From Lachnospiraceae bacterium (GTDB lineage Bacteria > Bacillota > Clostridia > Lachnospirales > Lachnospiraceae), in assembly GCA_017622845.1 (NCBI GenBank), contig JAGAQJ010000075.1:1-59371 (forward strand): a stretch of DNA of 59,371 bases, written 5' to 3'. Below are positions 40,480 to 45,840 of the stretch, in pieces; within the stretch, counting starts at the first letter, position 1, and the number at the start of each line of letters is the position of its first letter. The notes beneath the pieces were generated by a model. That model made no database searches, was not told the origin of the DNA, and worked only from the letters and a program-made list of their open reading frames with translations. Position numbers and translations under genes: made by a program.

Positions 40480-42435
40480 TTATAACGAATTGATTCTGTC
40501 AAACTTATCATGAAGCTCTGACGCAACCTGCCCAATCATTGTTGCAGATGCCGCAATTTCCTCCGTGCTGGCAGCAAGATTCGTAATACGCTCATTGACA
40601 TCGTCTACAACCTTCATGAGATTTTCCGAATTTTGAACCAGTCTGTTTATCGCTTCGACAATACGCTCTTTGTTTTTGTTGCTGTCGTCGGCAGCTCCCT
40701 TGCTGACATCACTTAAGGTTTTGATTTCCTGTGCAACAACTGCAAAGCCTTTTCCAACCTCTCCTGCTCTTGCCGCCTCAATGGAAGCATTCAGGGAAAG
40801 CAGATTTGTCTTTGAGGCAACCTTTGTGATGTTTTCATTATTTCCGCCAAGCTGTACCAAAAGCTCGTGAATCTCATCAAAGGATTTCCTCATATCATCG
40901 CAGAAATCGACCACCTCAACCATTGCCATGCTGATATTGGTGCTCTCCTCTGCGTTGTTGTTATTGCCGTCTATCATTTCACTAATCGACATATTCAGCG
41001 TATTAAACTCGCCGTTTGCCTCTGACACCATCATTCCGATGGTTTCATTCTTTTGGGAAATTTCTGCGTTTTTATTCTCTATCTCATTGGAAATCTCCTG
41101 TATGCGCTTGTTCTCATCCTCAACAACGCTCTTTATATAATGCACACAGCTGTCCTTCCGATTGCAGCCATTATAAATGGCTGTTGCCATATCAGTACAG
41201 GTATGATAACCGCACGCACTGCAGTTGATATGCTGAAGCGATTTCTCTGTCTTCTTCATATCCTGGAAAATAGCGCTCAATTCTGACTGGCTTGGTTTTT
41301 GTATCTCATTTCCCTTTGATTTGTCAGTGTATTCCCTGATAAAATCATTGAGATTCAGATGCGCAAATTGTTTATTGAGATTTTTAAGCCTCTGCTCCGG
41401 CTTCGCATTTTTTGCCCATGCGCTGCTTCTCCTCTTTGACTTGCTTGCTTCCTTTATCGCCTGAAGCTCATAAAGAATATCGTCTGATTTTGTCTTTTCC
41501 TCCTCCACGCCTGTACCGTAGATACAGCCTTGTGCGCAATTCAGTGCATCTACCATAAACGGAAGCCTCCTGCCTGCAAGAACTCTGTTTTTGTAGTCCT
41601 CAAGGAAATGATATGCATGCTTCTCGCCTTCTATCTGGCGTATAAACACTTCTTCTCCGCAGAACCAATATACATTTTCCTTTAATCCGCCCGGCATCGG
41701 ATAGATAGAACCTAAGCCATATTCAATCTCATTTGCCGCAGGCTCTGCCTTGATGTTGTGCTTTCGGGCATACTGCGCCAAATGGTCAAAGGTTACGTTG
41801 TAGCTGACATAGCCTTTATTTTTAGGGTCATTAATCTCGTCACGCTTGGCGATACACGGACTTATAAATGCAAGCTTATCTGTTATTTTCAGATATTTTT
41901 TGGCATAAATTGCGCTGCACATCAACGGACTTTGTATCGGAACAAGCTTCGGTATCAGCTCCGGTATGTAATGCTCGATATAATTGACGATTGCAGGACA
42001 CGGCTGCGAGATACCGCCTGTAAACTGATGCTCCGTGATATACTTGATATATCCCCATGTCGTGATATCCGCTCCAAAGCTTACACTGATGATACGATTT
42101 ACCCCCAGCTTCTTCAAGCCCCCAAGAATCTGCTTGTATTCATTCGGATAATTTGCTGCAAATGCCGACGCCCACAGCACCGATATCCGTTCTCCTCCTG
42201 CAAGCGCTGCAAAAAATTCTTCCGTATCATCTACGAACTCCCTCGCATGATGTTCACAGGCATCAAAGCATGCTCCGCAGGCAATACATTTATCACCATC
42301 TACCTCTATCCGCTGAGAACCGTCTTCCATCTGAACAGCCCGATTTGCAGTAATAACAGGACATGTTGATATACATTTATTACAGCCGATACATTTATCA
42401 TTAGTAAAAACTAACCCCTTCTGATTCCCGTACAT
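40480..42435 (-). CDS. Ferredoxin/[FeFe]-hydrogenase-like/chemoreceptor fusion protein
   Basis: A 651-residue cytoplasmic protein. Two [4Fe-4S] ferredoxin motifs (C15, C18, C21, C25 and C50, C53, C56, C60) lead into a hydrogenase large-subunit-like domain (about 85-310). Cluster cysteines C146 (Q-P-C-P-A), C194 (S-P-C-I-A-K), C300 and C304 (N-C-A-Q-G-C) align with the H-cluster ligands. The proton-transfer cysteine of T-S-C-C-P is Pro145. A further Fe-S domain has C405, C408, C413, C424 and C430. The last 215 residues are an MCP signalling coiled coil with [16 protein letters not shown]. No membrane helix. It is probably a redox or H2 sensor. ATG at 42435 is preferred over GTG at 42444. Confidence 0.88.
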
Positions 42436-42719
42436 AATGTACACATCCTCTCGCTTTTTATTTGTTATTTATTTTAACACAAAATTTTCATTCTGTACAT
42501 AATTCACTGTAATTTCTGTTTTTGCAATCAAATTTTTGTTACTTTCTACAATCGGTGCCGCAGTGGCTCTTATAAATGTGCTTAGTCAAATTTACCGTTT
42601 TTTCTTTTACATGAACTTTTTTTCCTGTTTCCATACACTTCCATATTTTTTAACTTTTCCGCCGTTATCATAACATCCGTGTACAAAGGCATGGTCTGAG
42701 GCGTGTTGCCCCCTGTACA

Positions 42720-42885
42720 CTAGTGTACTGACACGCTCATTTCCGAACTAACAGTGTTGGATATTTTGTTACTCTGCAAGGCGGAGGAATGAGGCGATGC
42801 GGTGGCATCGTCGATTGACGACAACGCAGCAGATGGCAAAATAGGCAATACTGTTAGTCTGAATATGAACGTGTCAGTACACTAG
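42720..42885. mobile_element. MITE-like element with long terminal inverted repeats
   Basis: The ends are inverted repeats of about 48 bases with few mismatches, starting CTAGTGTACTGACACG on each strand and including CTAACAGT. The 166-base unit has no gene. Its centre holds TGCGGTGGCATCG and TTGACGACAACGC, related to 4553-4590. It lies between the hydrogenase-like gene and the mannanase gene. The surrounding 42436-43169 stretch shows nothing else that I can identify. Confidence 0.75.
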
Positions 42886-43169
42886 CACTAAGCTGCCGGA
42901 TTGTCCGTTGTTACTCCGCATATACCCTGTACTTCTATATTTTTAACATTTTTTATGTTTATTTAATTTAATAATTAGTGATATTTAAACAGCGTTCCGC
43001 CTTTTATCGTGAAATAACACAACATTTAAGTTCATTAAACTATAATTTTCCCCATTGTTTCCCAGTATTTTTTAATGTATTTTAGTTTTAGATGTTTTGT
43101 ATTACAGCCGGCTCTTGTTTGAAAAGCATCCTTGTTTCTATTAACATTGATACGCGAATGGAGGTTCTT

Positions 43170-44676: not shown

Positions 44677-45840
44677 CTAATGCAAAATAAGGAAAAAATA
44701 CTCCATCTCCAGCACCGGGTCTTCGAAATTTTCTTCCCAATACTCTGCCATTCCGTCTGTATTGTGGCCAATCATTCGAATATAAAGCGACAGGTAATCC
44801 CGCACTTCTTCCCACCGAAGCTTTCGCCCGGCAAGCTTTTCCTTAATAAATACTGACACACGTGTCATAATAAATTCCATTGCAATGCTTTGAAAATGCT
44901 CTGTCAGATACTCTAAATCATCGCTGACGCAATCACCATAAATTTCCGATACCAGCACATTCTCATAAAAAATCATATCTTTTGCAAAGTGTCCGTTCCA
45001 TTCATGCCATTCCTGTAAAAGTTCGTTCCATACTGCTTCTTTCCCGTCCAGCTCTTCCACAAAGGCTGCAATATCATGCAAGTATGGTTGATATGCAGGT
45101 TCTTCCTTATAAAACTGTGTCACATCAAACAAGGTCTGGCACACCTCAATCAATGCCTCCTTTTCATCAAATATTGTCTTTTGCCACAATTTTAGATTTT
45201 CTTGAAGATTTTCTGCATCTTCATACACTTCTATACAGGCATAGACCTCCTCCTCCCACTCGCATTCAAGACATTCATGGAGCAGGGAAAAGCAAAGCAT
45301 CAGTCTGTCCTCAAGAGAAAACTCCCGACGCCAAAGCAAGCCAATCAATGCATTCCGTACCTGATATTCCATCGGAAAATCAGAGTGCTCCAGGCAATGC
45401 GGAGGCAGCTGCATACGGCACTGCTCCGGCTTTTGGTGAATTAACTCCAGCACGGATGGGCAGGCACCGGAAAGAGAATACTCCTTCACAAGGATACTAT
45501 CCGCCTCGTCCTTACCAATTACATCAATTTCATTCTGCTTTCTTGGGAAACGGGCACATGTCTCTGATAACGCATGCTCTCCGTGTCTTTTCACAATCTC
45601 ACACAGACCGTTTTCGTCCAACAGCACACATGCCTGGCAAGGATTCTGCTTCATCTGATAGCCTTTTTCATCGTCCTGCCCTCCATGCGTTGTGTACTCG
45701 CACAGATACTTTGTTTCCTCATGATTCTGCCAGTTATCATAGCTTTCCTGCTCCACACGAATCGCCCAGCCCTTACAGCAGGTCATGGTACATTGCTCTG
45801 CAATGCACTGAAAGCTGTCATATATCGAATCCTGATACAT
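44677..45840 (-). CDS. fliB: Flagellin lysine-N-methylase
   Basis: A 387-residue protein with the cysteine-rich opening F-Q-C-I-A-E-Q-C-T-M-T-C-C-K-G-W, then C-Q-A-C-V-L-L-D and T-C-A-R-F-P-R, the pattern of FliB Fe-S proteins that methylate lysines of flagellin using SAM. The C-terminal half is helical and acidic. It implies a flagellated host, although no flagellin gene is in the window. It is transcribed alone. Confidence 0.88.
   Translation of the reverse strand: MYQDSIYDSFQCIAEQCTMTCCKGWAIRVEQESYDNWQNHEETKYLCEYTTHGGQDDEKGYQMKQNPCQACVLLDENGLCEIVKRHGEHALSETCARFPRKQNEIDVIGKDEADSILVKEYSLSGACPSVLELIHQKPEQCRMQLPPHCLEHSDFPMEYQVRNALIGLLWRREFSLEDRLMLCFSLLHECLECEWEEEVYACIEVYEDAENLQENLKLWQKTIFDEKEALIEVCQTLFDVTQFYKEEPAYQPYLHDIAAFVEELDGKEAVWNELLQEWHEWNGHFAKDMIFYENVLVSEIYGDCVSDDLEYLTEHFQSIAMEFIMTRVSVFIKEKLAGRKLRWEEVRDYLSLYIRMIGHNTDGMAEYWEENFEDPVLEMEYFFLILH

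Follow-up and report, generated by a model that had tools for sequence, protein, structure and literature searches.

Can the core of an [FeFe]-hydrogenase serve as the sensory domain of a chemotaxis receptor, and if so, what would it read? The question is raised by a 59,371-nucleotide stretch of DNA from a Lachnospiraceae bacterium (GenBank assembly GCA_017622845.1, contig JAGAQJ010000075.1; hereafter, the window), where the minus strand at 40480..42435 encodes a 651-amino-acid protein that joins a hydrogenase-like domain to the signalling domain of a methyl-accepting chemotaxis protein (MCP). Our analysis confirms this receptor as a well conserved member of a known, apparently uncharacterised class, and comparison with its relatives indicates that it very likely signals to the kinase CheA. 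On balance, we consider it probable that the protein works in the cytosol as a chemoreceptor, with a slow H-cluster reporting on H2 or on low-potential redox state.

The receptor frame is intact (minus strand, 40480..42444), and its domains follow in the order dicluster ferredoxin, [FeFe]-hydrogenase H-domain, short iron-sulfur (Fe-S) domain, and MCP signalling domain, all above Pfam cut-offs. Two [4Fe-4S] ferredoxin motifs (Fer4_10; residues 9-60; 42256..42411) with cysteines at 15/18/21/25 and 50/53/56/60 precede the H-domain (Fe_hyd_lg_C; residues 89-307; 41515..42171; 107.8 bits against a cut-off of 22.1). The C-terminal Fe-S domain (PF04060; residues 400-431; 29.2 bits against 23) features a CX2CX4CX16C motif at 41143..41238, with ligands spaced C405-X2-C408-X4-C413-X16-C430, and the MCPsignal domain (PF00015; residues 494-641; 40513..40956; 74.4 bits against 34.6) harbors an intact and conserved hairpin tip (residues 543-568; 40732..40809) that corresponds, by sequence comparison, to the CheA/CheW contact region of MCPs. 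No PAS domain was present (among 25 of 27 Pfam families listed), and hydropathy averaged over 19 residues peaks at 1.18, which gives no reason to expect a membrane helix. A sequence-only reading of the locus had described the same assembly (two ferredoxin clusters, a hydrogenase-like domain, a further Fe-S domain and a full MCP signalling tip, all in one chain and free of membrane helices), and each part of that description holds; loss of the CheA-binding hairpin, which would have counted against it, was not seen. Measured against L097, the closest relative with a name, dN is 0.09 and dS 2.9, the latter near saturation and not estimable for three of five relatives tried; the gene therefore looks constrained and, together with the intact frame, this argues that the architecture is not a product of chance.

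The H-domain retains its ligands and has lost its usual proton relay. C146, C194, C300 and C304 superpose in alignment on the four cubane-ligand columns, as the sequence-only reading had predicted; the contrary result did not occur. The L1 motif SQPCPA (143-148; 41992..42009) supplies C146 and places P145 in the column of CpI C299, where it replaces the proton-transfer cysteine. The L2 motif SPCIAK (192-197; 41845..41862) supplies C194 and retains K197, the counterpart of the [2Fe]-contact lysine of CpI, and the L3 motif (296-309; 41509..41550) supplies C300 and C304 and terminates in G307-T308-G309, the G-T-G that had also been noticed earlier. Overall, the receptor has neither the cysteine relay of group A (P145) nor the glutamate relay of group D (L251), a column in which all seven group D sequences aligned carry Glu. 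Proline at the C299 position is itself not new, being reported in about 10% of HydDB sensory sequences (PMC10055695).

These residues are shared well beyond the window. A family-profile scan of one-per-species genomes returned at least 595 pattern matches, in which one gene may match twice, and at least 579 encoding relatives; the best 80 loci, with titles that are nearly all Lachnospiraceae or its genera, were aligned with the receptor. All 81 sequences agree at P145, S192, K197, L251, D296, L298, N299, C173 and Y245, and likewise at each of the four H-site cysteines. The eight ferredoxin cysteines are present in 80/81, the remaining one being a gap, and two partial frames (L109 and L168) are the source of single gaps in this alignment.

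In the phylogeny with groups A-D that had been suggested as a check, all 38 sensor-module sequences fall on one side of a branch with support of 100/100, and C, D, B and A, named by architecture and motifs, each form their own clade. The sensor-module set comprised 23 receptors like this one (omitting L009 and L017, which have interrupted frames), six of a second receptor type, and nine other sensor-module proteins, among them L068, an MCP fusion in which the MCP portion is weaker (its genome, G087, has CheA and stands outside the 27 receptor genomes discussed below). Comparison sequences were all six PAS-type group C loci, seven of group D, three group B-like, and seven of 33 group A loci; a second tree, with MCP sequences thinned by half, held 102 in total. 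The order in which the sensor clade, C, D, A and B join is not settled, as some long branches are drawn together, C beside D and B beside A. Cysteines of the C-terminal Fe-S domain are present, all four, in every aligned sensor-clade, C and D sequence. Two further features of the aligned loci were a very diverged receptor on a long branch, with NYCSA at L1 and its cluster cysteines kept (L086, 1848-3821), and five of the seven group A sequences (L037, L038, L042, L052 and L094) with TSCSPGW at L1, which places Ser in one cubane-ligand column.

The sensor module is joined to more than one kind of output. According to Pfam, hybrid histidine kinases (L026, L028, L032, L069, L071 and L072), a GGDEF-EAL protein (L067) and an MCP with a receiver domain (L015) all nest inside the sensor clade. 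Across 171 distinct sensor modules, phmmer labels, with nine proteins also checked by Pfam, gave 151 MCP outputs, 10 kinase, 7 EAL, 1 MCP plus receiver, and 2 none, a tally skewed toward MCP, the full receptor having been the query that retrieved many of the loci. GGDEF/EAL-type fusions were seen in L067 (Pfam) and in L221, L226, L242, L244, L245 and L255 (phmmer). Within the family, 83 of 397 genomes (66 of 320 high-quality ones) carry the module at E up to 1e-60. For the class the count is 13 of 291, and nine of these 13 genomes belong to seven other families. One genome encodes tandem receptors (L089, 2182-4107, and L010, 1465-3432; G108:C4), the second only 36% identical to the receptor studied here.

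Is the protein a signalling receptor at all, or does the MCP part serve another purpose? Of 150 genera, 27 yielded a full-length fused homologue (in three of them a single stop interrupts the match), and CheA is present in all 27 receptor genomes versus 56 of the 123 others (Fisher p 1.2e-8). The bacterium's own genome encodes two CheA, three flagellins and one FliB. Taken with the intact tip, this co-occurrence and the CheA and flagellin genes of the same genome make signalling to CheA very likely. The result bears on the proposal that the protein is a genuine but slow hydrogenase, an H2 or proton valve whose MCP part is merely a scaffold for assembly. Such an enzyme would be expected to have the H-domain, two ferredoxin clusters and hydrogenase fold seen or modelled here, and TamHydS, with similar changes, still turns over, its H2 evolution being about a thousand-fold slower than that of group A in the account given in PMC11803613. 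We nevertheless regard this explanation as highly unlikely, given the conserved tip, CheA in every receptor genome, the fusion of the same module to kinase and GGDEF-EAL outputs, and the presence of neither known relay residue.

The receptor is best placed beside group C2 of HydDB, listed since 2016 as "Chemotactic (putative)" (PMC5037454). Fusions of hydrogenase and chemotaxis output had been thought little documented; this part of the sequence-only reading does not stand, given that named class and the spread of the module through the family. C2 and the receptor share an H-domain with four cubane-ligand cysteines, a linked MCP signalling domain and, in the same source, proposed H2 sensing; no feature tested separates the receptor from the C2 description, the comparison being with that description rather than by the HydDB classifier. 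The HydDB table describes C1 with a kinase link, and cyclic di-GMP output is not among its [FeFe] classes in the portion of PMC5037454 available. An acetogen survey obtained C2 matches and discarded them in validation, where the [FeFe] check was a known motif coordinating the H-domain cluster (PMC9431212). No characterised C2 protein or H2-taxis receptor was found among the papers listed, in a search largely without subscription papers, or in the accessible parts of PMC8924675, PMC3561251 and PMC4342158. What is new here is that the sensor module forms, by sequence, a single clade distinct from the tested sequences of PAS-type C and of D, A and B, and that this clade also carries kinase and GGDEF-EAL outputs; likewise new are its clade-wide residue invariance, the complete co-occurrence with CheA, the swapping of outputs including GGDEF-EAL, and the hydEGF-receptor clusters described below.

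Characterised hydrogenases offer further points of comparison. TmHydS of Thermotoga maritima (group C, M2f) likewise has two N-terminal clusters, an H-domain and a C-terminal Fe-S cluster, and its Y223 corresponds to Y245 of the receptor (Tyr at the F417 position); taken by description, it differs in its PAS domain and in Ala at C299, Gly at M353 and Ser at M497. The aligned PAS-type group C sequences, of which L073 has PAS by Pfam, form a clade separate from that of the receptor. TamHydS of Thermoanaerobacter mathranii (group D, M2e), also compared by description, is reported to share the C-terminal CX2CX4CX16C motif, Ser at M353 and Leu at M497, but has no output domain, Ala at C299, and a Glu252 relay where the receptor has Leu; here too, the group D-like sequences aligned are a separate clade. 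The Fe-S motif is said in PMC8163306 to mark the putatively sensory M2e and M2f hydrogenases, and the receptor carries it (C405, C408, C413 and C430). Relative to the catalytic group A enzymes CbA5H and CpI, the receptor has replaced C299, M353 and M497 alike, and it scores below the NCBIfam group A/B cut-offs (TIGR04105, 128.7 against 450 bits; TIGR02512, 86.3 against 405.95). Its MCP hairpin is shared by sequence with solved MCP signalling domains such as 3g6b, a soluble T. maritima receptor that is not known to have a hydrogenase-like sensor.

Some residues of the site are peculiar to the clade. C173 (41917-41919) is present in 37 of 38 sensor-clade sequences and in 0 of 23 from groups A-D, the sole exception in the wider alignment being L027, a receptor of the same type as this one; it is a candidate cluster-side thiol confined to the sensor clade. 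Together with the clade-specific residues P145, L251 and D296, C173 could also mean that the old H-cluster pocket now senses another small ligand (CO, formate or a metabolite), with no metal-hydride chemistry. The invariance of the four H-cluster ligands and K197 in 81/81 sequences speaks against such a change of use, which we judge very unlikely.

If the site holds an H-cluster, the maturases HydE, HydF and HydG should be informative. All three were sought across the 150 genomes above, and in the bacterium's own genome they are adjacent on one contig (C39). Three relatives bring them directly to the receptor, each on one strand: the order is hydE-hydG-hydF-receptor in L134 and L142 and receptor-hydE-hydG-hydF in L155, with spacers of 19 bp and 128 bp at two of the receptor junctions and a slight overlap at the third, and the adjoining hydE, hydG and hydF score above NCBIfam cut-offs. 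No catalytic hydrogenase was found in the sequenced stretch around these loci. The linkage represents three distinct loci among 178 scanned (duplicates included; L207 lies on the same contig as L134), for which a chance rate of 0.05 expected (P about 2e-5) is a rough guess. L134 falls in the branch of the receptor studied here; L142 and L155 belong to one 12-sequence group, where they are not sisters and support is modest. In the genomes of L134 (2.0 Mb) and L142 (2.6 Mb), no PF02906 protein other than the receptor was found. Elsewhere, hydF lies near L172, and a hydrogenase-like frame lies near the kinase-output protein L071.

Several observations weigh against an H2-responsive H-cluster. None of the maturases is associated with the receptor (HydF, 18/27 versus 68/123, p 0.39; HydG, 14/27 versus 60/123, p 0.83; HydE, 18/27 versus 67/123, p 0.29), and all three are absent from 8 of the 27 receptor genomes. 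Six of these eight have a listed completeness of 99-100%, and two (G031 and G060) hold the nearest relatives among the 150. In that same set, hydF and a full-length receptor share a contig in 0 of 18 genomes having both. L134 and L142, for their part, come from genomes that are, or could be, incomplete; the L134 gene layout recurs in G151, itself listed as 72% complete. At the site, L298 takes the position of CpI M497, matching the M497L variant of CpI, which is reported to integrate its [2Fe] site poorly (PMC10055695). S90 is private to this receptor, the other 80 of 81 sequences having Pro; its codon, TCG, is one base from a Pro codon, so either a real substitution or an assembly error is possible.

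Alternatively, the H-site might hold only a [4Fe-4S] cluster, the protein being a redox chemoreceptor (for O2, NO or the ferredoxin pool) in which the [2Fe] subsite and H2 have dropped out of use. The eight genomes devoid of maturases and the loss of both known proton relays favor this alternative, and the four [4Fe-4S] sites predicted in each chain would be appropriate for redox taxis. Against it, K197 is retained in 81/81 sequences, and the H-site including K197 is intact in the eight receptors of maturase-less genomes (L005, L006, L008, L012, L015, L018, L030 and L033); moreover, hydE, hydG and hydF adjoin the receptor in three relatives and have it as their only client found in two. Maturase presence also proved a weak test of H-cluster loading: among 100 genomes in which a group-A-like H-domain reaches at least 280 bits, 31 likewise score below cut-off for HydE, HydF and HydG alike, and well assembled genomes such as G127 (nine contigs) are among them. 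Absence is therefore not specific to the receptor and may reflect something general in the family. We consider a [4Fe-4S]-only site unlikely, and slow H-cluster sensing of H2 or low-potential redox state remains our preferred explanation.

How might such a receptor work? We propose that an H-cluster held by C146, C194, C300 and C304 changes state in response to H2 or to redox shifts in the low-potential ferredoxin pool, and that turnover of this cluster would be slow because the cysteine and glutamate relays are both absent. The state of the cluster would then change the H-domain, the C-terminal Fe-S domain acting as a rigid hinge, and shift the helix pair of the dimer; this change would pass from the C430 helix toward the MCP coiled coil, alter the CheA kinase, and in turn affect flagellar behaviour. 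A 445-residue model of the receptor, on which the connection between Fe-S domain and MCP helix rests, predicts a hydrogenase fold in which C430 directly precedes the final helix (model 429-444; receptor residues 431-446), and by sequence this helix continues toward the MCP part with no PAS found between. In TamHydS, H2 is reported to change secondary structure with the C-terminal cluster not reduced (PMC13104023), which by analogy favors a conformational route. Cluster loading, H2 as the signal, the route of that signal and the direction of the response are what we infer. The link from H2 or redox state to motility drawn by the sequence-only reading has the same standing: it is strengthened by hydEGF beside the receptor in three relatives and weakened by the eight genomes with no maturase, and one of its supports, a nearby fliB, does not hold up, FliB lying beside 0 of the 80 related loci (flanks of up to 6 kb; more than 4 kb for 64 loci upstream and 63 downstream). 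The central description of a chemoreceptor on a hydrogenase-like core, with cluster ligands kept and the usual proton relay lost, stands.

In anaerobic communities, that of the gut among them, fermenters release H2 and other members consume it. A methanogen has been reported to show chemotaxis toward H2 (work cited in PMC4266047), and the same behaviour is suspected in a sulfate reducer (PMC12004927). If the proposal is correct, the receptor would make H2 or redox taxis in flagellated Lachnospiraceae accessible at the molecular level. The hydEGF-receptor clusters make it possible to ask directly whether an [FeFe] H-cluster can act as a receptor cofactor rather than a catalyst. More tentatively, and with somewhat greater doubt than confidence, we suggest that a sensor module using the H-cluster purely as a receptor cofactor is widespread in Lachnospiraceae and other Clostridia and has been swapped among chemotaxis, hybrid-kinase and cyclic di-GMP outputs, such that some genomes with no catalytic [FeFe] hydrogenase keep HydEFG only for a motility receptor.

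Finally, the surroundings of the gene vary among relatives. Eight window neighbours were sought within the same flanks of the 80 related loci. FliB, a flagellin lysine-N-methylase at 44677-45840 (NF038110, 173.6 bits), shares its absence from all 80 with yibEF, the alkaline phosphatase and a 158-amino-acid frame, and the others recur sparsely: GH5 beside two loci, the PALP-family gene beside three, and ArgRS and QueH beside one each. A different neighbour is conserved in 24 of the 80 loci (upstream in 23 of the 24 frames) and is a candidate aspartokinase, named from the letters rather than a family search. As for the receptor start, ATG at 42435 is more likely than the possible GTG at 42444, judging by a likely ribosome-binding site (AGAGG, 42447..42451, minus strand) that lies 11 nt upstream of the former and would be spaced 2 nt from the latter. 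Roughly 285 bp upstream of that start, the window holds a near-perfect palindrome of about 165 bp (42715-42890; fold z-score -12) that looks like a miniature inverted-repeat transposable element: it has 47 matching rows in its own genome, four of them near full length including itself, and many partial, some being the same copy on the opposite strand.
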